From: a virus
DNA length: 46,214 nt
Virus record (IMG/VR): IMGVR_UViG_3300046001_006201
Location: 1 to 46,214 of that record
Strand: one strand, 5' to 3'
The notes under the pieces are model-generated. The model searched no databases and was not told the DNA's origin. It worked only from the letters and a program-made list of their open reading frames with translations. Below, piece after piece: positions 7,800 through 42,852 of the stretch; positions within the stretch are counted from its first letter, which is position 1, and each line of letters begins with the position of its first letter. The position numbers and the translations under genes are program-made.

Positions 7800-8291
7800 T
7801 TATTGAAACATATCAAGTTTTGTTTTTTGGGTTGTCTTTTTTCTTTTTGATGGGACATCATTTAAAATATCCAAGTGTTCATTATTTTCAGTTTCAAAAG
7901 AACCCGATTCCAAATCAATTATTTGAGATGAATAAAATTCACTTAAATCTAATATTAGTGCATCTGTGCTACCAAACATCTTTGATAAATCAGCAATAAT
8001 ATTTTTACCACACATTTCAACAGTTCTATTTATAAATCTTTTTTCTAAATTATTTAAAAGTTCTTTTTTATCCATATTTGTTGTTCTACTTGTATATAAA
8101 ACTGAAATTTCTTGTTTATATAAAGTTTTAAACGAATTTTCTTTTGAATAGATATAAATAGACCACAATTCAGAGAATCTTCTGAATAGTAAATTTCGTT
8201 CATAATTAAATAATAGCTTATTAATTATAAAAGTTAAATAAATTATGTATAAAAAAATAAAAATATATATAAAAAATTTAAAATATTCCAT
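7800..8291 (-). CDS. Small membrane-anchored protein of the head operon, unknown function
   Basis: This 163-residue protein starts with a strongly hydrophobic segment (residues 4-29, FKFFIYIFIFLYIIYLTFII) that predicts one membrane anchor. A charged helical region follows, then a Lys-rich C-terminus (PSKRKKTTQKTK). It is packed between the portal gene (23 bases away) and an acidic small gene (2 bases away). No family is recognised. The anchor suggests action at the inner membrane, perhaps in prohead initiation, which in T4 occurs on the membrane; that is inference. Confidence 0.6.
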   Translation of the reverse strand: MEYFKFFIYIFIFLYIIYLTFIINKLLFNYERNLLFRRFSELWSIYIYSKENSFKTLYKQEISVLYTSRTTNMDKKELLNNLEKRFINRTVEMCGKNIIADLSKMFGSTDALILDLSEFYSSQIIDLESGSFETENNEHLDILNDVPSKRKKTTQKTKLDMFQ

Positions 8292-8293
8292 TG

Positions 8294-8785
8294 TTAAATC
8301 TCTTCAGTTTCAACAACTTCATCTAAAATTTGTTCTGTTTCAAAAATTTCATCAGAATCATCTTCTTTATCTGTTGTTTGATATAAAGAATTTTCTTCAC
8401 TTAAATCGGAGAATAGTGTTGACGAATCATCAATTTGATTTATTAAATCATCATTCAACACATCGTCTTCATCATCCGTATAATCTACATCGTCTACATC
8501 GTCATATATAACAGCAGAAATTTCTTCAGTTGGTTTAATTTTCTTAACATTATTATTTGAGTGTGATTCTTTTGATATAGTTTCTTCAATTTTTGAAATA
8601 TGAACTGCGCTTATTTGAGATGGATCTATGAAGATTAGATCTGAATTTGTTTGAAATACCATAATCTTTTTTGAATTTAAAAGTCGTGATAATTTTTCTT
8701 GAATTGATTCGAGCGTTTCTGAATCATCTGTTAACACAATTTTTGAATTATTTGTTTTTAGAAAGAACGTGTACTTTTGTTTCAT
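8294..8785 (-). CDS. Acidic two-part small protein, unknown function
   Basis: The 163-residue product has an N-terminal part of about 85 residues that alternates strands and helices (YTFFLKTNNSKIVLTDDSE, then ISAVHISKIEE), resembling a small beta-sheet domain. It is followed by a long acidic, probably disordered tail (DDVDDVDYTDDEDDVLNDD). It lies 2 bases from one neighbour and 3 from the other in a tightly packed head-gene operon. I recognise no family. The acidic tail could act in assembly or as a DNA mimic, but nothing decides this. Confidence 0.55.
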   Translation of the reverse strand: MKQKYTFFLKTNNSKIVLTDDSETLESIQEKLSRLLNSKKIMVFQTNSDLIFIDPSQISAVHISKIEETISKESHSNNNVKKIKPTEEISAVIYDDVDDVDYTDDEDDVLNDDLINQIDDSSTLFSDLSEENSLYQTTDKEDDSDEIFETEQILDEVVETEEI

Positions 8786-8788
8786 AAT

Positions 8789-9070
8789 TTAAATATCCTT
8801 TTTGAATCTACGAGATGGTCTAACTAATTCGTCTGAAATAACAGTTTTTGTTATTATAGGTTTATTATCATTTTCTTTTGTTATATTTTCTTCATTCAAT
8901 TTAATGAATTTATAATGTTTCACACCTTTGGCACGCATTAACGTTTCCCATTTTGAAACATCCGATTGTTTTAAAAATATTTTCTTTGGTGTTCGAATTA
9001 TTCTACCAGATTCATGTATAAAAGTAAAATTTAAATCTTTAATATCTAAACAGTACATTTCTTCACTCAT
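8789..9070 (-). CDS. Small protein of unknown function in head operon
   Basis: This 93-residue protein has an N-terminal beta-like section (YCLDIKDLNFTFIHESGRII) and a basic C-terminus (RPSRRFKKDI). No motif or membrane segment is visible. The gene lies 17 bases downstream of the cupin gene and 3 bases before the acidic protein, so it is co-transcribed towards the portal. The function is unknown. Confidence 0.55.
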   Translation of the reverse strand: MSEEMYCLDIKDLNFTFIHESGRIIRTPKKIFLKQSDVSKWETLMRAKGVKHYKFIKLNEENITKENDNKPIITKTVISDELVRPSRRFKKDI

Positions 9071-12398: not shown

Positions 12399-12432
12399 AA
12401 AAAAATCCCTACAACTATAAAGTTATAGGGAT
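12399..12432 (-). terminator. Rho-independent terminator after kinase-like gene
   Basis: ATCCCTACAACT and AGTTATAGGGAT form a 12-pair stem with one mismatch around an ATAA loop, followed on the minus strand by seven T residues. It separates the UvsX/kinase transcript from the helicase promoter. Confidence 0.85.
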
Positions 12433-12453
12433 AAAAAAATAATTAAATTTAAA

Positions 12454-13005
12454 TTATATAAATCTTAACACGTCTTTATTTTTCATATATGGTAGTAATT
12501 TATCATATATTGAAATCATATTATCTTCAACTCTTAATCTAAAAGCACTATCATTACCATCTCGAATTCCATCATTAAACATATAGTTATTTTTATCGGA
12601 TTGTTTAAAGAAAATGTAATCATACGTGTGAATAAAGCTTTTTGTTAATTCAATTTTTTGTTCAACTAGATGATTGAATCCAGCAGTTTTTGAATAACCA
12701 ATACTATCAACTATAGTTCTATCTGTTATTACAATGCTATATCGCATAGCCATTTCTAGTTCAGTTTTAATTTGATTTGTAAAGATCCAGAGTTGACTTT
12801 CCTCTGTAGTTTGTTTATTTATTTTAAATGGAGATTCACTTGCCAATTCAGTGAGTATATGAATTGAACGATCATTACATCTTTTTTTACAACGAGTTGC
12901 CATATCAAATACAGAGGTTGTTTTTCCAGTTCCATGTGTTCCAGAAAATGCAACTTTATTTACATCATGTAAATTATCTAATATAAGTTCAACAGGATTC
13001 ATCAT
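12454..13005 (-). CDS. P-loop ATPase, nucleotide/nucleoside kinase-like (AAA_28/NadR-like)
   Basis: The protein of about 183 residues has a clear P-loop, SGTHGTGKTT (about residues 21-30), then ILTELASESPF and a central VITDRTIVDSIGY, which resembles the D-R motif of thymidylate-kinase-like and NadR-type P-loop kinases. It probably phosphorylates a nucleoside, nucleotide or related small molecule. The substrate cannot be read from the sequence. The start is one of two adjacent ATGs near 13005, ten bases after GGAG; an upstream TTG at 13014 is less likely. It is co-transcribed with uvsX (20 bases apart). Confidence 0.65.
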   Translation of the reverse strand: MMNPVELILDNLHDVNKVAFSGTHGTGKTTSVFDMATRCKKRCNDRSIHILTELASESPFKINKQTTEESQLWIFTNQIKTELEMAMRYSIVITDRTIVDSIGYSKTAGFNHLVEQKIELTKSFIHTYDYIFFKQSDKNNYMFNDGIRDGNDSAFRLRVEDNMISIYDKLLPYMKNKDVLRFI

Positions 13006-13025
13006 ATAAAACAAACTCCAAAATT

Positions 13026-14267
13026 TTAATCTTCAAGAAAAGAAGGTGTGTCATCAACTTCAACAGATTTTTCTTCTAGTAGAATTTCTTTTTTCTTGGT
13101 AGGATTTTGCCAAATTACTGGTTCAGATTCTGCAGTACGAACTTCGGGATCCCAATAGATACCATCAATATCACCACCAGCATTCTCTCGCTTAAACTCT
13201 TCAATTGCCTTTGTTAAATCTGCATCAAACGCTGCACGAAATTCAGCATCTTCTGTATAAAGATTACTAGCTTGCTTTTGACGAAATGATTTTGTTGGAT
13301 AAGACTTTAAACGACATGAAGCACCAGCATCAATATACTTACGTGCCTTAAGAAATTCATAGTTAGTCCAAAAATTTGAAAACCCAAGAGTTGCATTAAA
13401 ATTGATTGTAATTGGAATATTTGGTGAAGACGCTTTATTTTTAATTGCACGAACTTTTACTGGTGACATTGTATATCCATATGGATCATTTGCATAGGAT
13501 GGTCCTTGTTCTACTTCAAATAACTGATATGCATTGAAGTTGACAGTTTGACCACCGGGAAGCGTCTGGTCTTGTTTCATAAATCGCATATCTGCTGCGG
13601 CTGGCATCCCCGTCATATTTAATTTCTGACGAAGTTGGTTTACAGCAACAAGAGCAATATTATATTTTACCAGTTTATCAATGTATTTTGGAATTAACCG
13701 AGCAAGTACATTTGCACGACGAGCACCATCTGTATTGGATAGCTCATCCGATGCGAGCATATCTTCAGTTTGGGTGTTTGCTATACTATCCCAAATGATA
13801 AGTGATGGGATTTCCATTAATTCTGGTTGTGAACTTTTAAATGCACATATCTGTTCGACACACTTAAATAACTTTTCAACAGTAAGACCATTAACAATGT
13901 GAACTGGTTGTGTACATCCAAGTTCTTTTAATCTCTTTTGAGACATACTTTCTTCACTATCGGCATAAATTGTGATAAATTTATCACCCCAAATTTTTTG
14001 TCCGCTTTTAATGAATGATGCCAGTAATGTACTTTTACCACTTCCGGGTTTACCAATATACATAGAAAATTTACAAGGAATTCCACCATCTGTAATTGCG
14101 TCTAATAAATCGATACCCGATGGAATCTTTACAATATCATCTGTTAGAGAACTTTCAATATCACTATTGGAAAGAAATGCTGAAAATGCTGCACTTATAG
14201 CATCCGTTTGTGTCATATCAATATTAATTGATTCTGATGAATTGCTTGACTTTTTAGGACGAGCCAT
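13026..14267 (-). CDS. uvsX: UvsX/RecA-like recombinase
   Basis: The 413-residue protein has the RecA-fold core of T4 UvsX: IPSGIDLLDAITDGGIP, Walker A GKPGSGKST (72-80), the catalytic Glu region YADSEES (101-107), Walker B PSLIIWDSIANT (near 155), and VAVNQLRQK leading to the mobile DNA-binding loop. It forms filaments on single-stranded DNA for strand exchange and recombination-dependent replication. The N-terminus is Ser-rich and probably flexible, and the C-terminus acidic (DDTPSFLED), as in many RecA-like proteins. AAAGG precedes the ATG. It is slightly longer than T4 UvsX (391 residues). Confidence 0.9.
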   Translation of the reverse strand: MARPKKSSNSSESINIDMTQTDAISAAFSAFLSNSDIESSLTDDIVKIPSGIDLLDAITDGGIPCKFSMYIGKPGSGKSTLLASFIKSGQKIWGDKFITIYADSEESMSQKRLKELGCTQPVHIVNGLTVEKLFKCVEQICAFKSSQPELMEIPSLIIWDSIANTQTEDMLASDELSNTDGARRANVLARLIPKYIDKLVKYNIALVAVNQLRQKLNMTGMPAAADMRFMKQDQTLPGGQTVNFNAYQLFEVEQGPSYANDPYGYTMSPVKVRAIKNKASSPNIPITINFNATLGFSNFWTNYEFLKARKYIDAGASCRLKSYPTKSFRQKQASNLYTEDAEFRAAFDADLTKAIEEFKRENAGGDIDGIYWDPEVRTAESEPVIWQNPTKKKEILLEEKSVEVDDTPSFLED

Positions 14268-15162: not shown

Positions 15163-15873
15163 TTATACGATTATAAAATCTGTATCGTTTGTTAAATTGA
15201 TTTGCAAAAACTTATCTTTAATAACTTTATTGACCGAGTTTTGATTAATACGAGAATCATTGCGGTCTTCAAGAATATTGAAATATATAACATCATTTGC
15301 TTTTTTAATATTATCATATATTTCATCAAATAATAAACTTCTCATACATTGATTCATAAAAACAATATCAATATCAGATTCACTTAAAATTGTTGATATT
15401 TTTTGTTTGGTTGTTTTAAGAAAAAGTTTTGAGTTATTAAATATATTTAAAGTAAGCTTATTTATATTTAAACTGTTTTTTTCATTAATACCATACTCTG
15501 GATAGTAATCAATATGTATTGTTTTTAATATTATTTTTGTTTCGGCAATAAAATCTTTTAATAAATTATCGTTTGGAAATACAATTAGTATTTTGATATT
15601 TGGATTATAAATTAAAAACCATATAATTAATAGTTTTTGAATTTGAGTTACATGAGAATAATTAAATGTTGTAACAAATACTTTATTTTTATTTAATAAA
15701 CTATCAATTACAAATATTTGATTGCTTGTTAAATTTATACTACGCATCTTTTCAGTTATAAAGAAAATCGGGTCTAATCTCAATCGTTCTGAATATGACT
15801 CTTGTTCATAGTCTTTGGTATAAAAATTTCTTTGAAATAAAGTGTTAAAAAAGTTTTTAATGCGTGAAATCAT
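15163..15873 (-). CDS. Terminase-like ATPase-fold protein lacking Walker A (degenerate)
   Basis: The 236-residue sequence looks like the N-terminal part of a T4 gp17-type large terminase: a DPIFFI motif at 34-39, LTSNQIFVIDSLLNKN in place of the 'L...Q..ll......N' segment, strand FVTTFN, then helix and a PNIKILIVFPNDNLLKDFI segment where terminases have 'N..i.i.a......'. The loop that should read R-x2-GK-S/T is NYSHVTQIQKLL, so no P-loop exists, and VFMNQCMRSLLF replaces the Walker B IDE. There is no nuclease domain. It may be an inactive regulator or relic. A remnant with the same start (MISRI) lies between the GH9 genes. The similarity is by eye and tentative. Confidence 0.45.
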   Translation of the reverse strand: MISRIKNFFNTLFQRNFYTKDYEQESYSERLRLDPIFFITEKMRSINLTSNQIFVIDSLLNKNKVFVTTFNYSHVTQIQKLLIIWFLIYNPNIKILIVFPNDNLLKDFIAETKIILKTIHIDYYPEYGINEKNSLNINKLTLNIFNNSKLFLKTTKQKISTILSESDIDIVFMNQCMRSLLFDEIYDNIKKANDVIYFNILEDRNDSRINQNSVNKVIKDKFLQINLTNDTDFIIV

Positions 15874-15908: not shown

Positions 15909-18227
15909 TTAGGGTAAATAATATAGTCCATGTAATTCTGATATTGGTTTAGGTGTTCTCGCTTTTAAACTTAAACTTGGTTTCCAACCATTTGATAATA
16001 ACATTGTAGCACAAAACAATGTTCCACTCATTGTTTCTTGTATAGTAAATTCACATTGTCTTGTACTTAAACTTTTATGTGCAGCCCAACTTCTCCATAA
16101 TGGAACCTCTGGAGTTTTAAATTCGACTACTCCAGTTGGACTAGGTGATGTCCACGCAGTTGCTCTCAGGTCACCATACATACCACCAGTAATACCGTAT
16201 ACAGTAATTCCCGGAACTGGGTCATCAATGTTATCATTATTACTAACTTCGTGTTGAATGTCAATAGGATACACCTGACCTACACCAGTTGTCCAACACA
16301 TTCCCATTGGATTTACACCAAACATATAATCCACGTTTAAAATAGCAGCGTCTAAATATTTAGTGTTGTTTGATAATAAATATGCAATAAATAATGGTTT
16401 AGCTTCATTACACATATTACTTGCACCCCAGTCCAGTAGTTTATCCTTTTCTGGAGGCCAAGTACAACGATAAGCCATTTTATCAATGTTAACTAAAATG
16501 GAGTCCGCATAATCATAGAACCACTTTTTAATATATGAAGCCTTTTCAGATTCCTGAATATAGTTTAACATACTATAACATATCCAAGGACTATAATCTT
16601 TATTCATATAAGGCCATTTATAAGGAGATCTTAATTGAGGTATTAATTGATGTAAACCTTCTAGATATTTTATGTCACCTGTTCTTTTATGTAATCGCGC
16701 TTTTGCATGTGCTAAAAATGGTAATATATGAGCTTCGGTTTCAGTAAAGGTTTTTTCATAATATGTACCCGCACCTCGATTTGTTCTTGCACCAATTGTA
16801 ATAGTACCTAAACTATTTTTTGGATCACTACCAAATTTATATGCCTTTTCTGCATATGATAACCATTTTGCAGAATTATAAGGTGCATATGGAAGAATCA
16901 TTTCAGAAAACATTGCTGCTGCAGCGGCAAATAAAAGAGAATCCCAACGAGTTCTTTTTGCATAAGCATATTTAACATTTGCTGAAATTGTTGGGTGTGT
17001 ATTTGTTTCAATAAAACCTGATACTCCACCCTTATCATCCATACTATTCAACCACCCCTTAAGACTCCATTCAACTTCGTCTAAAATATCGGGATAAACA
17101 TTCATAGATTCGGGTATGTTTAATTGAAAATTTGTGTGTTTACTTTTTTGTAATTCGTATGCATATAGCATATCAAAAGTAACAGTATAATGATAGTTAT
17201 TACGATCCCAATCTGCTGCATCGTGATTGCCACCAATTGTTGATTTTGTAGCTGGACTAGTACTATCTCTTAGTGTAGCGCCAATAATATCAAATCGTTC
17301 TAATCTTGGTGTAGCTTCTTTGAAGTATTGAAAATAACCGGGAAATGCAACCATATCAGATTCATGAATTTTAGTATCATGACATTTGATTCGAGGCCAA
17401 TTAGTAAATGGAGCTTTTAATTCAATACCACATCGTTGATGATAAATTCCACGCATTGCAGTATAATATAATTCACCATATACATCATTAGATTGTTTAA
17501 ATGACCAAGAACGTCCTACACCGGGAACTTTAATATAATATTCACCAACATTTTTAAAATCGGTGAAATTCATTTCATAAACATATTCACCCGTAATATA
17601 TTTACCTGATGCTAATTTAGTAGCAGAATCTCGTAAAGTAATAGGTCCAGAAAATTCAACTATATTTGTTCTTGCATTTATAATTTGAAACTGTAAACCA
17701 CTTACATCAAATTCGAGTGGTCCATATTCATTAATATGACAACCTAAATATGCAAACTTTCTAGGAGCGTTTGGAAGATAACCTAGTTGGTTCACTTTGA
17801 TGGCTCGTGAAATTTGGTTTTCATTAAAATCAATTGAAATTGTAAGATCTTTAATTTGAATAGATTTTGTATCAGATGGTAATTTTAGATAACAATAATG
17901 AGCATAGTCTACTTGTGTAGGAAATTGTTTTTGAGTTGCACCTAAACTTACAATTGTTCTACCCATAGCAGATGGTTCTGGTGAAAATGATGATTTAATA
18001 TCAAGATCTTGTTCGCCTATATTTAATCTAGCTTGTGCTATGTATTTATCTCTTATTGCATATGCTTTGAATCTTGCATTGTAATCAGTATATTGAAACC
18101 ATTTATTATATTCTACTAAAAAAGTATTATCACTCAATCTTTCAATTTCATTCATTACATCTTCTTGTGATGATAAAATGATGATAACCCATTGATTTGT
18201 GAGATACAATGTTTTTAAATGTTTCAT
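15909..18227 (-). CDS. Glycoside hydrolase family 9 (endoglucanase-like), copy 1
   Basis: The 772-residue protein has three parts. Residues 1-140 are a domain shared only with copy 2. Residues 142-245 (AIKVNQLGYLP, KFAYLG, YYIKV) are the Ig-like domain preceding many GH9 enzymes. From 250 to the end is an (alpha/alpha)6 GH9 barrel starting YYTAMRGIYHQRCG. The catalytic Asp pair is in GGNHDAADWDRN (332-343, D336 and D339) and the general acid is likely E726 in CEFTIQET, matching the GH9 'E.AI' motif. GH9 enzymes cleave beta-1,4-glucans such as cellulose. No signal peptide is visible, so it is probably virion-bound or released by lysis, attacking host exopolysaccharide (inference). Confidence 0.8.
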   Translation of the reverse strand: MKHLKTLYLTNQWVIIILSSQEDVMNEIERLSDNTFLVEYNKWFQYTDYNARFKAYAIRDKYIAQARLNIGEQDLDIKSSFSPEPSAMGRTIVSLGATQKQFPTQVDYAHYCYLKLPSDTKSIQIKDLTISIDFNENQISRAIKVNQLGYLPNAPRKFAYLGCHINEYGPLEFDVSGLQFQIINARTNIVEFSGPITLRDSATKLASGKYITGEYVYEMNFTDFKNVGEYYIKVPGVGRSWSFKQSNDVYGELYYTAMRGIYHQRCGIELKAPFTNWPRIKCHDTKIHESDMVAFPGYFQYFKEATPRLERFDIIGATLRDSTSPATKSTIGGNHDAADWDRNNYHYTVTFDMLYAYELQKSKHTNFQLNIPESMNVYPDILDEVEWSLKGWLNSMDDKGGVSGFIETNTHPTISANVKYAYAKRTRWDSLLFAAAAAMFSEMILPYAPYNSAKWLSYAEKAYKFGSDPKNSLGTITIGARTNRGAGTYYEKTFTETEAHILPFLAHAKARLHKRTGDIKYLEGLHQLIPQLRSPYKWPYMNKDYSPWICYSMLNYIQESEKASYIKKWFYDYADSILVNIDKMAYRCTWPPEKDKLLDWGASNMCNEAKPLFIAYLLSNNTKYLDAAILNVDYMFGVNPMGMCWTTGVGQVYPIDIQHEVSNNDNIDDPVPGITVYGITGGMYGDLRATAWTSPSPTGVVEFKTPEVPLWRSWAAHKSLSTRQCEFTIQETMSGTLFCATMLLSNGWKPSLSLKARTPKPISELHGLYYLP

Positions 18228-18261
18228 TATAATTAAATTCCTTTTAAATGTAATATATAAT

Positions 18262-18269
18262 ATTTGTCC
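18262..18269 (-). promoter_or_regulatory. GGACAAAT leader element of GH9 copy 1
   Basis: TGGACAAATATTATATATTA (minus strand) directly follows the terminator T-run and ends about 20 bases before the GH9 copy 1 start, where AAGGAATTTAATTATA precedes the ATG. The same arrangement is duplicated before copy 2. Confidence 0.45.
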
Positions 18270-18271
18270 AC

Positions 18272-18311
18272 AAAAAAATAAAATTCATATAAAATGTATA
18301 TGAATTTTATT
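18272..18311 (-). terminator. Rho-independent terminator between GH9 copies
   Basis: ATAAAATTCATAT pairs with ATATGAATTTTAT, and on the minus strand it is followed by a run of seven T residues. A near-identical copy stands before GH9 copy 2. Confidence 0.85.
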
Positions 18312-18337
18312 CTATTAATAATGGTATTTTATCTAGC

Positions 18338-18445
18338 TTATTCAGTAAGTTTATTATTAAACCAGTTTATGAAGTCTTCTTGGTTGTATTTACCACCTTT
18401 TGATCCATTAAGTTCTTTTGGAATAATTCTAATAGTTCTTTTAAA
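18338..18445 (-). pseudogene. Gene remnant: orphan C-terminal coding fragment
   Basis: The minus-strand frame 18445-18338 reads like a protein C-terminus (PKELNGSKGGKYNQEDFINW, then FNNKLTE and stop). It has a stop two codons before the recognisable part and no start codon. With the short MISRI-type frame upstream it makes up the 330-base space between the GH9 copies. It is probably the 3' end of a gene lost by deletion. The parent family is not recognised. Confidence 0.45.
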
Positions 18446-18453
18446 TTACATAT

Positions 18454-18537
18454 TTATTTAATAAGTTTAATGTCATATAATTTATCTAAGTTATTATCAA
18501 TAAATGTAATCGTTCTGAATATAATTCTTGAAATCAT
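18454..18537 (-). pseudogene. Short frame related to the 5' end of the terminase-like gene
   Basis: A 27-residue frame starts MISRIIFRTITF. The DNA around its start (TAAATATG, AAATGAATATGATTTCA, then TATTCAGAACGATT further in) resembles the start region of the 236-residue gene at 15873 (MISRIKNFF) and its early coding part. Both follow a GH9 gene at the same distance. This suggests that GH9 and its downstream gene were duplicated together and the second copy then decayed. It could still be expressed as a tiny peptide. Confidence 0.4.
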
Positions 18538-18572
18538 ATTCATTTATCATATTTAAATTAAACTAAAACGTT

Positions 18573-20879
18573 TTATGGTAAGTAATATAAACCATCTAAT
18601 TGTTCTTTTGGTTTTGGTTTCCTATACTTTAATTCTTCATTTGGATACCAATTATCTGACAATAACATTGCAGAACTAAATATAGTTGCACTCATTGTTT
18701 CATGAATTGTAAACTCACACTGTTTTACATTTGAAGTTTCATGGCATGTCCAACCTCTCCAAGTAGGAATTGATTTTGGAACTTTAAATTCAACTGGTCC
18801 TGCTGGACTTGGAGAATTATATACTTGTTGTCTCATTTCATATGAAACACCGCCAGTAACTCCATAAATTCCAATACCGGGAACCGGATCATCAATTTTA
18901 TCATCTGTACTAACTTCATGTTGAATATTAATAGGATATGCTTTTCCAATTCCCGTTGTCCATGACATACCCATTGGATTGACACCTAACATAAAATCTA
19001 GATTTAATATAGCAGCATCTCTATATTTTTTATTTCCAGTTAATTTTTCGGCAATAAATAAAAATCTAGACTCATTACAAACATTACTTGCACCCCAAGC
19101 TAACCAAAAATCTTTTTCTTTAGGCCAAGTACAACGATAAGGCATTCCTTCAACATGTTTCATTAAATATTCAGCCGGATCTATAAACCACTTTTTAGTT
19201 AATGATGCTTTTAATGTATCTGGAATATAATTTAATAATCCATACGCAAACCAAATTGAATAATCTTTATTATTGTATGGAAATTTTGCTGGTGGTTTAA
19301 TTTTTGGAATTAATAAATCTAATCCTTTTAAATATGATGGATCATTCATCATTCTACTCATACGAACTTTTGCATGAGCTAAAAATGGAATAATATGGTC
19401 TTCAGTTTCTGTAAATGTATATTCTCCATATAATCCTGTATTATGATCTATGTATGGAATTTTAATTGTACCTAAACTATTTGCGGGATTATTACCGAAG
19501 CTATAAGCTTTTCTTGCATACCATTCCCATTGTTTAGCGGCTCCGGCATCAATTGGTCTACAAAATTCAGCTAACATTGCAGCAGCAGATGCAAACATCA
19601 ATGAGTCCCAACGAGTTCTAACTGAGAATGCATAAGCACCATCTACGGTGATCTTTGGGTGTGTAAATGTTTCTACCATTCCAGAAATACCACCAGCGGC
19701 ATTCATACTACGTTTCCATACACCTAGTCCAAATGCAGCTTCATCTAAAATATCAGGTAGAATATTACTAGACTCTGGAATATTTAATTGATTTCTTTTA
19801 AATTTTTGAGGTTGTAACTCATATGCATATAACAGATCAAATACATTAGTATAATGCATACTATTTCGATCCCAATCTGCTGCGTCATGCCATCCACCTA
19901 TAACATTACTGACTGTACTAGATGTATCTGTAGTATAAGCATAAACACTAAATCGTTCATATGGATTTGGTCTTCCAGCAAATGATCTTGGAAATTCTAC
20001 ATATTTAGATTCACACACTGGAGCACTATGACACTTAATTCGAGGCCAATTAGTATAGGGTGCTCTTAATTGTACACCACAACGTTGATGATACATACCT
20101 CTAGTTGATGTATAAAATACTTCACCATAAACATCTGGAGTATGTTTAAATGTATATGATTTACCTACTCCGTCAACTTGTATATAAAATTCCCCTTCTT
20201 CAATTAAAGATGAAAAATTAAGTTCATATACAAATTCACCATTTAAACTTTTTCCACTTTCTCCTGTGCTATCCATATCACGTAGTGTAATTGGACCGGT
20301 AAAAGCAATTTCACCAGTGTTAGCATTCACTATATCAAAACTTGTAGAATCAATTATTAATGGACCTACATCATAAATATGACATCCGATATATGCAAAT
20401 TTTTTAGTAGCACTTGGTAGATATCCTACTTGATTAACTTTTATAGCTCGTGATAATTCGTTATGTTTGATATCTATTGTTTGACCTTTAACAGTAACTG
20501 ATGTTGTATCTTCTGGTAATTCAAGGTAACAATAATGTACGTATTCAGTATTTGGTCCACCAATTGTTTCTGAGTTACCAATACCAACAAGATTTCTACC
20601 TAATCGAATTGGAACTGGTGAATAAGATTCGGGTAAATCTAAATCCTGTTCACCAACATTCATACGTGCTGCCGCAATATGAACATCTCTAATTTTATAT
20701 ATTTCATTTCTTGCTCTGTAGTCTAGTCTTTCATCATCAAAACTATCTACATACAATTTAATCTGAGGGTAATATTTACCACCAGTTAATCGATCTATTT
20801 CAGCTACAACATCATCTAAACTTGATATAACTAAAATTTTCCATCGATCTGTCAATGATATGGTTTTTATAATTTTCAT
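18573..20879 (-). CDS. Glycoside hydrolase family 9 (endoglucanase-like), copy 2
   Basis: This 768-residue paralogue of the downstream GH9 protein has the same three-part design: a private N-terminal domain (KIIKTISLTDRWKILVISS, GEQDLDLPESYSP), an Ig-like domain beginning SRAIKVNQVGYLP, and a GH9 barrel from VFYTSTRGMYHQRCG. The catalytic motif GGWHDAADWDRN is closer to the GH9 consensus GGWYDAGDYGK than copy 1, and the C-terminal acid is in CEFTIHET. The start at 20879 follows AAGGAATTTAATTATA, identical to copy 1. Both copies keep every key residue, so both are probably active, perhaps with different glycan specificity or forming hetero-oligomers. Confidence 0.8.
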   Translation of the reverse strand: MKIIKTISLTDRWKILVISSLDDVVAEIDRLTGGKYYPQIKLYVDSFDDERLDYRARNEIYKIRDVHIAAARMNVGEQDLDLPESYSPVPIRLGRNLVGIGNSETIGGPNTEYVHYCYLELPEDTTSVTVKGQTIDIKHNELSRAIKVNQVGYLPSATKKFAYIGCHIYDVGPLIIDSTSFDIVNANTGEIAFTGPITLRDMDSTGESGKSLNGEFVYELNFSSLIEEGEFYIQVDGVGKSYTFKHTPDVYGEVFYTSTRGMYHQRCGVQLRAPYTNWPRIKCHSAPVCESKYVEFPRSFAGRPNPYERFSVYAYTTDTSSTVSNVIGGWHDAADWDRNSMHYTNVFDLLYAYELQPQKFKRNQLNIPESSNILPDILDEAAFGLGVWKRSMNAAGGISGMVETFTHPKITVDGAYAFSVRTRWDSLMFASAAAMLAEFCRPIDAGAAKQWEWYARKAYSFGNNPANSLGTIKIPYIDHNTGLYGEYTFTETEDHIIPFLAHAKVRMSRMMNDPSYLKGLDLLIPKIKPPAKFPYNNKDYSIWFAYGLLNYIPDTLKASLTKKWFIDPAEYLMKHVEGMPYRCTWPKEKDFWLAWGASNVCNESRFLFIAEKLTGNKKYRDAAILNLDFMLGVNPMGMSWTTGIGKAYPINIQHEVSTDDKIDDPVPGIGIYGVTGGVSYEMRQQVYNSPSPAGPVEFKVPKSIPTWRGWTCHETSNVKQCEFTIHETMSATIFSSAMLLSDNWYPNEELKYRKPKPKEQLDGLYYLP

Positions 20880-20914
20880 TATAATTAAATTCCTTATAAA
20901 GGTTAATATATAAT

Positions 20915-20922
20915 ATTTGTCC
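20915..20922 (-). promoter_or_regulatory. GGACAAAT leader element of GH9 copy 2
   Basis: TGGACAAATATTATATATTA on the minus strand follows the terminator, as before GH9 copy 1. The two leaders are nearly identical for about 80 bases. Confidence 0.45.
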
Positions 20923-20924
20923 AC

Positions 20925-20963
20925 AAAAAAATAAAATTCATATACATTTTATATGAATTTTAT
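20925..20963 (-). terminator. Rho-independent terminator after actin-like gene
   Basis: ATAAAATTCATATA and TATATGAATTTTAT form a stem followed by seven T residues on the minus strand. It is 34 bases downstream of the actin-like gene and a duplicate of the terminator at 18272-18311. Confidence 0.85.
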
Positions 20964-20996
20964 TCTATTAATAATGGTATTTTAATATATTTATTT

Positions 20997-22070
20997 TTAA
21001 GCTTTCTTATTTTGGATCCATTGAGAGTAGATTAAACATCCTAAAGAAATTGCACTTAATGGATCTTTTGCATGTCTAATCTCACTAATCTCAATTGGAA
21101 AATCTTTAATCTCGGAGAACTTTTCTTTAAACACATCAACAAAATCACCAATTAGCGATGTTCCACCAGCAATTACAATTGGGATTGGTTCGTCAAGATC
21201 AATACTATCGGCATTTTCTTTAAATTGTTCTTCAATGTGTTCTACAACATATGATATTAATTGTTGATATGCAAATGCGATTGCTTGTCTTGCAACTTTT
21301 TCTTTTTTATGAGTATTTGAATTTACAGGATTCTTAATACTCATATCGGGTTTTTCTTTAATTGATGTAATTTTATTTGGAATCATTCCAGTTGCTTGTC
21401 CGGCATAAGAATCTATGAAGTCGCCACTACGACCAACCGAAAATGCGAAGATCAAAGCTCCCTTATAAGATAAACAAATATTAACTTGTCCAGCACCGAA
21501 TGAAATTCCAATACCAGTAAAGTTCTCAGATGAACATTCTGAAAAAATAATACTTTGACCTTCGTTCAACGGGATGACATCGGTAAAGCCAATATTCTTG
21601 AAGATCTGCTTAAAAATTTCAGTATGAAAATGGAGTGGTGCAATTTCTTCAGTATCACATGGCTGGCTTGGTACAGAAAACACAACCTGTCCACCAGTAA
21701 CTTCTTCATTAATAATATTCTTAATCATTGCTGTAATTATGGGTGCAGCATTTGATTCAGATGGACTGAGCATTCCTTTTGACATAGGACGATTAATTTT
21801 TGAATTAAAAATATTAGCCAGCTTCAAAGCATCTTCACCTACAACTGCATGAAAATCAATTTCACCATTTTCATCTAATTGTGTGATAAAGTCCAATTTT
21901 GAGCTTGCCATTTCACTTGATGAAATTTGACTATCTTCAACAAAGATAAACATGTCACGAATCGAATTAATTTCAATTTGACTATCTTCATTAACTTTTG
22001 CACAAACTAGATTTCCAGTTCCAATATCGAAACCAGAAATTAAATACTTTTCCGTTGCAGACTTCGCCAT
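20997..22070 (-). CDS. Actin/ParM-fold ATPase (phage actin-like protein)
   Basis: The 357-residue protein has the signature of the actin/Hsp70/MreB fold: phosphate-1 loop GFDIGTGNLVCAK at the start, phosphate-2 loop GIGISFGAGQVNI in the middle, and the adenosine motif IVIAGGTSLIG near residue 300. It ends in basic QNKKA. Length fits ParM/StbA-type filament formers better than Hsp70. Such proteins polymerise with ATP to move or position DNA; some large Bacillus phages carry actin homologues (Alp family). No ParR-like partner is visible, and a non-filamentous role cannot be excluded. The start at 22070 follows AAAGGATTTATTT; it has a strong sigma70 promoter and its own terminator. Confidence 0.75.
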   Translation of the reverse strand: MAKSATEKYLISGFDIGTGNLVCAKVNEDSQIEINSIRDMFIFVEDSQISSSEMASSKLDFITQLDENGEIDFHAVVGEDALKLANIFNSKINRPMSKGMLSPSESNAAPIITAMIKNIINEEVTGGQVVFSVPSQPCDTEEIAPLHFHTEIFKQIFKNIGFTDVIPLNEGQSIIFSECSSENFTGIGISFGAGQVNICLSYKGALIFAFSVGRSGDFIDSYAGQATGMIPNKITSIKEKPDMSIKNPVNSNTHKKEKVARQAIAFAYQQLISYVVEHIEEQFKENADSIDLDEPIPIVIAGGTSLIGDFVDVFKEKFSEIKDFPIEISEIRHAKDPLSAISLGCLIYSQWIQNKKA

Positions 22071-22215: not shown

Positions 22216-22401
22216 TCAGAACCAGATCCGCCAGACCTTGAAGTCCACGACCCAGTTTACAAAACCCGCAAATGACTTGTCTTCAGCATCGCAAGCCTCG
22301 CTTTCCTTGTAAAGCTTCCACGACTCCATAACCACCATCTTCACACATGTGAAGAATCCAATGATCGCGACAACACCGATAACGTCGGTAACAAATGACA
22401 T
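22216..22401 (-). CDS. Small single-pass membrane protein (early-type leader)
   Basis: The 61-residue protein has one predicted transmembrane helix (about residues 6-28, VIGVVAIIGFFTCVKMVVM), followed by a charged stretch and an aromatic C-terminus (VVDFKVWRIWF). Its base composition is clearly more GC-rich than the neighbourhood. It is monocistronic: a 90-base leader, AAGAAGG before the ATG, and a strong terminator. The leader resembles that of the hydrophobic gene at 37221, although the proteins do not align. Function is unknown; high expression and membrane location suggest action on the host envelope. Confidence 0.65.
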   Translation of the reverse strand: MSFVTDVIGVVAIIGFFTCVKMVVMESWKLYKESEACDAEDKSFAGFVNWVVDFKVWRIWF

Positions 22402-22426
22402 AGCACAAACCTTCTTATTTTAAAGC

Positions 22427-40863: not shown

Positions 40864-42852
40864 TTAAATTGTACACTTATCACCATCACAGAACTTTTCA
40901 ATAATATCCTGAGTTTGTTTAAAATCAAAATTAATTGGTTTTATTTTTTTGCTCATTTCTTCAAACTGTTCTACTGTAATAGTTTCATATGGAGCTTGTA
41001 CATATCCGTGTTCTGATAATGGTAAGAAGGATACAGTTTTAAATTGGTCTTCATACATTTCAATTACATTTTTAAGATATTCAGATTCATCTTTTGTGAA
41101 TGTAACAGTTTGTGAAACTGAGTTATCCGACCAAAGAGATTGAATTTTAGACCCTAGTTGCATTTGTTCCCATACCGACACATCAGATTTACCCTTATAA
41201 AAGTTTTCAGCTTTTACAGGTACTTCAAATACAATTGAACGATCACCGTATGCGGAAACTTCCCAATTGTAACCAGCATTCTTAACAGCTTGAACTAACT
41301 GTGTATTAGTTTCTTCAATACGAATACGTCTAATATAATATTCAGAATGTTCAAAGTGAATTCCGGGTGTTGCACCCATAAGTAATGATGTACTACCTGC
41401 TGGCTTTACGGTACTGAGTTTAATACTACGTTGAATACAAAGCCAGTCTGAATATTTTTTATCAAGATTTCTTAAGTATTTATAACCATGATCACACCAC
41501 TTGAAGTATTCTGTGGCACCATGCTTTTGAATAGCTTGTACAATACCAGATTGTGAAATACCAATTCTTCTATTTTTAAGAATTTTAGAATTTGTGGTGG
41601 GTAAATGTGTGGGAACTAGTGTAACAGTTTTACAATACAAAAATGCATATTTAATACTTCGTTTAAAATCTTCAAATGAATCATGTCGTGCTGGAAATAC
41701 ATCACTGATATTACAAAGTTCTTCAGATTCTAAACTAATTTCACCACAAGGATTTAAGAGTGTAGCTTTACCATCAATACCCTCTTGATAACCATCTTTC
41801 ATACGACCATAATTTTGCATACGGTGTTTGTATAAAATTCCGGGTTCACCAGACTTTTTAATTGTATCTATAATTTCAGTATAATCCATACCATCTTCAG
41901 CATAAATTGAATTATTACTTGCCCACCTATGTGACATTAATTCTTCTGAATATAAGTCTGGATCTTTTAATGAAATGTATTCCTTATCGTCATAATTACC
42001 AAAAGCGATTTGTGCGGTTCTTCTTTTTCCACCAGCTACAACACACACACCAACAACATTCATAATATCAACAATATCACTTGATGTAATATTATTATCA
42101 ACTCTACCAGCCATTAATTTCTGAATTTTTTCAATACAATCAATCAATGGTTGTGGACCGGGAGCAATACCACCTGATGTTACAATTGGTGAACCAGTTG
42201 GTCGAATTTGAGAATAATCAATTGTTGTAGGAAGGTGTTCTTTGCCTACATATGACTCTAGAACCACACGTAGGACTTCACACCACCCTTCACGCGAGTC
42301 TTCTACAACAAATGGTTTATCAGTGGTTTTAGGTTTTACGAATCGAAACTTACCAGCACCTTCGGTGTCAAACCCTACGCCGACTCCGCACATTGAAACG
42401 TCCATCATAAATACATATGGGTCAGAAAAATTAGTACTATTTGTTGAAACTGCAGAGCAATTGAATAACCCCATAGATCCACGTTTAAATACAACATCAC
42501 CCATATTCGCTAATCCGCGACCGGGGGGAATAAATTTAAAATTAAACATTCGTGTATACATTTCTTGAGCAGACTTTTGCGCTTTATGTGCAGCCCAAAG
42601 AAGACGTAAATTCTTACAATGATTTAATTGAATTGTATAACATGCTTCTACAACACGCTTTACAGTTTCCCACCATTCTTCAGTTCTATCTTCACCTTCA
42701 ACTCTAGCAGCATAAGTTCTTTTATAAGTTAATTTACCGAGTGGACCCCATTCTGGTTCTACACCCTCGTATTCTTTAATAAAATTTTCACTTAACTTAA
42801 AACGTTCTTTAATAGGGTAAATCCAATTTTCCATATTATCTTTAACACTCAT
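40864..42852 (-). CDS. nrdJ: Ribonucleotide reductase, class II (adenosylcobalamin-dependent)
   Basis: The 662-residue protein is like the monomeric B12-dependent ribonucleoside-triphosphate reductases. It has FIPPGRGLANMG, GLFNCSAVS with the first active-site Cys, MCGVGVGFDTEG, LLNPCGEISLESEELCN with the catalytic Cys and Glu, VKPAGSTSLLMGATPGIHFEHS, and the C-terminal redox pair in FCDGDKCTI. It reduces ribonucleotides to deoxyribonucleotides for phage DNA synthesis, needing cobalamin from the host but neither a small subunit nor oxygen. No NrdA/NrdB pair and no intein is visible. It has a sigma70 promoter and a leader of about 100 bases. Confidence 0.9.
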   Translation of the reverse strand: MSVKDNMENWIYPIKERFKLSENFIKEYEGVEPEWGPLGKLTYKRTYAARVEGEDRTEEWWETVKRVVEACYTIQLNHCKNLRLLWAAHKAQKSAQEMYTRMFNFKFIPPGRGLANMGDVVFKRGSMGLFNCSAVSTNSTNFSDPYVFMMDVSMCGVGVGFDTEGAGKFRFVKPKTTDKPFVVEDSREGWCEVLRVVLESYVGKEHLPTTIDYSQIRPTGSPIVTSGGIAPGPQPLIDCIEKIQKLMAGRVDNNITSSDIVDIMNVVGVCVVAGGKRRTAQIAFGNYDDKEYISLKDPDLYSEELMSHRWASNNSIYAEDGMDYTEIIDTIKKSGEPGILYKHRMQNYGRMKDGYQEGIDGKATLLNPCGEISLESEELCNISDVFPARHDSFEDFKRSIKYAFLYCKTVTLVPTHLPTTNSKILKNRRIGISQSGIVQAIQKHGATEYFKWCDHGYKYLRNLDKKYSDWLCIQRSIKLSTVKPAGSTSLLMGATPGIHFEHSEYYIRRIRIEETNTQLVQAVKNAGYNWEVSAYGDRSIVFEVPVKAENFYKGKSDVSVWEQMQLGSKIQSLWSDNSVSQTVTFTKDESEYLKNVIEMYEDQFKTVSFLPLSEHGYVQAPYETITVEQFEEMSKKIKPINFDFKQTQDIIEKFCDGDKCTI

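Follow-up and report, generated by a model that had tools for sequence, protein, structure and literature searches.

The closest described enzymes are the Ig-GH9 endoglucanases, represented by CelD of C. thermocellum (1CLC/4CJ0), the metagenomic enzyme 3X17 and BoGH9A (6DHT). For the GH9 family an inverting mechanism is expected, and in CelD and T. fusca Cel9A the His and Arg of the H-x-R motif take part in forming the active site. Besides cellulases, the family includes xanthan-specific enzymes, i.e. bacterial exopolysaccharide can serve as substrate (PMC10881899). GH9 genes have likewise been reported in viral contigs from deep sediment (PMC8725595) and from the rumen, where the viral enzyme is 79.5% identical to a Ruminococcus enzyme, is active on CMC and was read as the product of an auxiliary metabolic gene (PMC10465536). 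Moreover, Erwinia phage S6 encodes adjacent GH48 and GH5 cellulases, and the cellulose of its host is the first receptor (PMC9544554).

Here, we analysed a virus record of 46,214 nucleotides in its full length, referred to as the window, which harbors two tandem genes termed GH9A and GH9B. As the preliminary description had stated, both copies are intact and each comprises an Ig-like and a GH9 domain. The reading frames lie on the minus strand, and Pfam identifies the domains as CelD_N and Glyco_hydro_9. The genes, domains and active-site positions are as follows.

15909..18227, minus strand: GH9A, 772 aa; PF00759 92.8 bits, E 3.9e-26; PF02927 46.5 bits, E 6e-12
17814..18227, minus strand: GH9A N-terminal alpha+beta domain, residues 1-138; profile A5, E 8.8e-44
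17514..17807, minus strand: GH9A Ig-like CelD_N domain (Pfam)
16191..17480, minus strand: GH9A catalytic domain, Pfam span, with D336 and D339
16248..16256, minus strand: GH9A Q-H-E replacing the GH9 H-x-R (alignment and signature pattern)
16050..16052, minus strand: GH9A E726, predicted catalytic acid in CEFTI (alignment)
18573..20879, minus strand: GH9B, 768 aa; PF00759 92.2 bits, E 5.9e-26; PF02927 49.1 bits, E 1e-12
20460..20879, minus strand: GH9B N-terminal alpha+beta domain, residues 1-140; profile A5, E 2.8e-45; own model with pLDDT 92.8
20163..20450, minus strand: GH9B Ig-like CelD_N domain (Pfam; numbering shifted by the 15 residues of the GTG start)
18888..20129, minus strand: GH9B catalytic domain, Pfam span, with D332 and D335
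18915..18923, minus strand: GH9B Q653-H654-E655 replacing the GH9 H-x-R (ungapped alignment to CelD and BoGH9A)
18714..18716, minus strand: GH9B E722, predicted catalytic acid in CEFTI (alignment; structural register with CelD)

The length of GH9B was counted from the ATG codon, and an alternative GTG is located 15 codons upstream. All Glyco_hydro_9 and CelD_N scores of both proteins exceed the Pfam gathering cut-offs (27.7 bits for Glyco_hydro_9), and the sole match in NCBIfam was CelK, far below its cut-off. In both proteins an N-terminal domain of about 140 residues is followed by the Ig-like domain and the GH9 catalytic domain, and they are 54% identical along their whole length. Elsewhere in the window record no GH9 match was found. 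With a probability of about 0.5, we interpret GH9A and GH9B as duplicated, virion-carried beta-glycan depolymerases that act outside the cell, with a coat of sugar polymer that covers or surrounds the host as the probable target.

The AlphaFold2 model of GH9B, based on a 23-row alignment, has a mean pLDDT of 90 and shows the (alpha/alpha)6 fold of CelD. The closest structure is CelD itself (4cj0_A, Z 35.3, rmsd 3.0, 498 residues aligned), followed by 3X17, BoGH9A and other Ig-GH9 enzymes, and non-GH9 folds appear from Z 13.8. A structure search of BFVD yielded one match below E 0.001, with an rmsd of 30. The Asp pair and the distal Glu noted in the preliminary description are present in both proteins within the motifs GG[WN]HDAADWDRN and QCEFTI. 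Asp pair D332/D335 of GH9B, corresponding to D336/D339 of GH9A, aligns to GWHDAGDY of CelD. The sequence-profile matches end before the distal Glu of CEFTI, which is conserved in the family and stands in the right structural register against CelD. Neither the Asp pair nor the Glu varies in the 14/14 full-length members or in the wider 23-row set.

A different result was obtained for the H-x-R motif. In an ungapped alignment, GH9A and GH9B have Q-H-E where CelD has PHDR and where BoGH9A and 3X17 have PHHR, and all 14 full-length relatives carry Q-H-[EDAGK] at this site, i.e. the replacement extends to the whole branch. Correspondingly, the classical H-x-R signature did not match GH9A or GH9B, whereas the classical GH9 controls L065 and L083 were matched. 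The second signature, E-x-[STA]-x3-N, did not match either protein, its Asn being replaced by Thr, whereas the controls L065, L068, L075, L079, L083 and L085 were all matched; both patterns are of the PROSITE type. As the fold is present and H-x-R and the signatures are absent, the proteins are to be placed in the GH9 fold family and not in the classical cellulase group. Owing to the replacement, cellulose as the substrate, and with it the label cellulase, should not be assumed, and because it runs throughout the branch, the proteins need not act on the known substrates of GH9. A characterised member of this branch was not found in the sources consulted. The two replacements could also indicate that GH9A and GH9B are non-catalytic glycan-binding proteins, i.e. 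receptor binders that make use of the GH9 scaffold. We consider this quite unlikely, since the Asp pair and the Glu, which binding alone would not require, are invariant in both sets, and identical replacements occur in secreted bacterial enzymes.

The window belongs to a T4-like phage and probably represents a fragment. It encodes a T4-type portal, a prohead protease, UvsX, a DnaB-like helicase and PhoH, in addition to thymidylate kinase and a class II ribonucleotide reductase. The latter (40864-42852, minus strand) has its nearest relatives in mycobacteriophages, with 39% identity, and is here part of a T4-like genome. A 245-kb contig, L001, shows the same gene order with a single GH9 copy, and the identities between both amount to 75% for Volactin, 66% for DnaB, 62% for UvsX and 56% for GH9. 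Two genes flanking the GH9 pair are syntenic in L001.

20997..22070, minus strand: actin-like (Volactin) gene; PF25216 E 3.5e-60
15163..15873, minus strand: short TerL-ATPase-like gene; phrog_675 E 0.006

The Volactin family is known for its link to cell shape in Haloferax, and the counterpart of the window gene in L001 is located at 7975-9051. The huge phages LR745208 and LR756511 likewise possess a Volactin-like gene (30-34% identity), yet no GH9 was found in them. The product of the TerL-like gene (L001 copy at 12410-13150, phrog_5989 E 5.7e-9) resembles just the N-terminal ATPase part of the large terminase, and its place is conserved in both phages. When further phages of the lineage were sought via the actin-like or the TerL-like gene, L001 alone was retrieved. 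In the window and in L001, the GH9 genes are flanked by Volactin and by TerL-like/UvsX, DNA-metabolism genes, without a recognisable tail module; a tail sheath was not found in L001 with PF04984, so that the tail genes of this contig were not located.

Several further features of both contigs were observed. Between the PDDEXK and Volactin genes, the window contains a membrane-protein-like ORF of about 60 codons with a GC content above its surroundings (22217-22402, minus strand), followed by a strong terminator-like hairpin. The PhoH gene of L001 (618-2969) aligns with that of the window in two parts, separated by an intein-like insert, and at 3133-3817 of L001 ORFs overlap in several frames with a composition unlike the rest of the contig, possibly due to a foreign insert or an assembly join. 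At L100 17170-19511 (245-kb phage), two related tandem genes with FGP...GWEV motifs are perhaps glycosyltransferase-like.

Given that the nearest full-length relatives outside phages are bacterial, GH9A and GH9B could be host DNA in a chimeric contig. This is very improbable, as the same gene occupies the same place in the independent contig L001, and the DNA shares the AT-rich composition of the phage (window GC 30%), in contrast to 40-65% GC in the bacterial relatives.

The two genes are preceded by similar control regions, and the remnant of a third gene lies between them; like the strand and the replaced H-x-R motif, these features do not appear in the preliminary description.

18228..18335, minus strand: cassette before GH9A; terminator-like hairpin 18272-18308, promoter-like GGACAAATATTATATATT at 18252-18269, RBS
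20880..20987, minus strand: cassette before GH9B; hairpin 20925-20961, promoter-like sequence 20905-20922, RBS
18347..18510, minus strand: HNH endonuclease gene remnant, frameshifted and with an internal stop; E 1e-14 with the intact gene of L001 as tblastn query

The two 108-bp cassettes are identical at 100/108 positions, whereas the first 300 coding bases show just 60% identity. Nearly the same control cassettes in front of proteins that are only 54% identical suggest co-expressed enzymes, which may cleave at different sites or prefer different variants of the substrate. Both reading frames are open with intact active-site residues, dN is 0.40 and synonymous sites are near-saturated; selection on both genes is supported. 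For dating the duplication, the synonymous sites proved unsuitable due to this saturation (same codon 0.60, expected 0.54). The T4-type late promoter TATAAATA was likewise dismissed, as it occurs in the window just somewhat above chance and is found before neither GH9A nor GH9B. In L001, an intact HNH endonuclease gene precedes GH9. The tree groups GH9A with the L001 copy weakly (90/67), in agreement with the HNH sequence, remnant or intact, that precedes each of them.

A scan of 84,980 species genomes revealed the whole architecture (query residues 3-768) in bacteria at about 40-48% identity, namely in Hydrogenedentota, Planctomycetota, Chlamydiota, one gammaproteobacterial MAG and one Puniceicoccaceae MAG. 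Reading of the ORF translations at the Waddliaceae and Parachlamydiales loci revealed ordinary chromosomal housekeeping neighbours. Glycosyltransferases were seen beside L013 and near L009 only, and exopolysaccharide gene clusters as a general rule near the bacterial relatives were discarded, being seen at these two loci alone. Bacterial relatives with a judgeable start possess a signal-peptide-like hydrophobic segment at the N-terminus. The copies of the window and L001 start directly at the N-terminal domain without a signal peptide, and their best 15-aa Kyte-Doolittle mean is 1.2-1.3, versus 1.6-3.2 in the bacterial ones. We conclude that GH9A and GH9B originate from a secreted enzyme of environmental bacteria and that the signal peptide was lost in the jumbo-phage copies.

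These results bear on the N-terminal domain, which the preliminary description had regarded as private to the two proteins and as a possible virion anchor. On its own, the domain is modelled with confidence (pLDDT 92.8) and is of the alpha+beta type. A sequence-profile search against the PDB retrieved nothing, and a fold name was not assigned because the best structural matches were too weak (Foldseek E 0.06; VIA Z 5.5 to trigger factor). The same domain is present in the secreted bacterial enzymes, and its profile matched GH9 genes only in the three phage records covered, i.e. the window fragment, the 245-kb contig L001 and the contig L002. Being common to secreted enzymes and not found in any other gene of these records, it lends no support to a virion anchor and belongs to the enzyme family itself.

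The secretion of the enzyme by the source bacteria, together with the published interpretation of viral GH9 genes in the rumen and deep sediment (PMC10465536, PMC8725595), would be in line with an auxiliary metabolic role, in which beta-glucan from plants or algae is broken down by the infected cell to feed phage production. We regard this as unlikely for GH9A and GH9B, since without a signal peptide the product would stay inside the cell, where polymers do not enter, though other export routes are possible. Such a role suits the phage contig L002 better, as its GH9 retains a hydrophobic, signal- or anchor-like N-terminal segment.

The preliminary description had called GH9 unusual as a phage depolymerase, which is correct in part. 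Its rarity was borne out, with one weak match among 50,697 phage records; on the other hand, viral GH9 genes are already on record (PMC10465536, PMC8725595), and phages are known to employ tandem cellulases of other families (PMC9544554). A candidate close relative from an annotated phage was rejected, as it is a 27%-identical piece of a classical GH9 in an unverified 6-kb fecal record, which may be bacterial DNA. GH9A, GH9B and the L001 copy group together with full support (100/100), and this clade is nested with proteins of Hydrogenedentota (96/96). The contig L002 is a different phage, with GH9 upstream of the terminase large subunit gene, and its protein groups elsewhere (100/100). Wider profiles revealed L105, L106, L102 and the classical GH9 of MT837902 as additional carriers; L107 and L108 repeat the match to L106. 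GH9 relatives hence occur in three or more further phage lineages, in one case among tail genes. The tree forces five label changes, or four without MT837902, which we read as five separate phage gains, at least four of them among IMG/VR contigs when MT837902 is left aside.

L105 6219-10172 and L106 6207-10160: tail-module protein of 1317 aa with LamG-like, CelD_N and GH9 domains

In these siphophage contigs, GH9 forms the C-terminal part of the protein, which lacks a signal peptide, and the two proteins share 44% identity across the N-terminal 630 residues. Both genes directly follow phage tail-repeat genes (PF12789 in L105), and the L105 contig also encodes a tape-measure protein (E 2.5e-84) and terminase. 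An AIDA-stalk adhesin-like gene is located at 2286-3815 of L105. L105 and L106 provide the best support for a tail enzyme; as a separate acquisition, they are no proof for the window proteins. L102 encodes a GH9 without signal peptide in the vicinity of a putative endolysin gene (identified by a weak match), an arrangement that would fit release at lysis. In the same manner, GH9A and GH9B could be soluble proteins made in the infected cell and freed at lysis to thin the matrix for progeny spread without being virion parts. The L102 arrangement, the lack of a signal peptide, of tail context in the window and of an anchor domain, and the terminator- and promoter-like cassette of each gene point in this direction; since the cousins in L105 and L106 are built and placed like tail proteins, we hold it to be possible but less likely than carriage by the virion.

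Taken together, the predicted fold, the invariant Asp/Asp/Glu, the synteny-kept descent in L001 and the recurrent gains would argue for virion-carried depolymerases, and the lack of a recognisable tail module around the genes and of a visible anchor domain, together with the hydrophobic N-terminal segment of L002, argue against carriage by the virion. The phage enzyme pair is real and well conserved; its fold is ordinary, the altered motif and the repeated uptake by phages less so. As depolymerases, GH9A and GH9B, presumably catalytically active, would attack a beta-linked glycan of the host envelope or the surrounding matrix. The cousins in L105 and L106 suggest that the virion delivers them, which would permit cleavage before or during adsorption. 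This idea is plausible and not unprecedented. More tentatively, and perhaps with one chance in three at most, the branch without H-x-R, and hence directed at a glycan other than cellulose, may have been taken up repeatedly as a virion-borne depolymerase, the jumbo-phage duplication covering two coat types of hosts that are poorly known (possibly Hydrogenedentota and Lentisphaerota). Should the proteins be depolymerases, they would give a clue to the chemistry of the coats that uncultured huge phages encounter, and perhaps to the hosts of these phages, and would add an enzyme type distinct from the GH9 cellulases characterised so far. Since unrelated phages have repeatedly taken up the enzyme, its role can be tested by a comparison of the tail-linked copies lacking a signal peptide with the secreted ones of bacteria.

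Compared with the known systems, GH9A and GH9B share with the Ig-GH9 endoglucanases CelD, 3X17 and BoGH9A (Z 35, 34 and 33) the Ig-like CelD_N domain, the (alpha/alpha)6 GH9 domain and Asp/Asp/Glu, but are just 22-26% identical to them and differ by Q-H-E, the extra N-terminal alpha+beta domain and the lack of a signal peptide. The secreted GH9-like proteins of Hydrogenedentota, Planctomycetota and Chlamydiota (L009-L017) show the same architecture at 43-48% identity, with Q-H-[EDAG] and a C-terminal ...YYLP/WYLP, but possess a signal peptide and are encoded on cellular chromosomes. The rumen viral GH9 is likewise a GH9 gene in a viral contig, and the text of that paper does not place the enzyme in the branch of GH9A and GH9B (PMC10465536). 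The tail-module proteins of L105 and L106 belong to the same wider branch, including the pre-Ig domain, and also lack a signal peptide; they differ by their 1317 aa with an extra N-terminal part, the LamG-like domain and their separate acquisition. Finally, the neighbouring genes gp094 and gp095 of Erwinia phage S6 likewise encode a pair of beta-1,4-glucan hydrolases, for which N-terminal attachment to the virion has been proposed; although these are GH48 and GH5 enzymes of a member of the Schitoviridae and not GH9 (PMC9544554), this phage offers the nearest working model for GH9A and GH9B.
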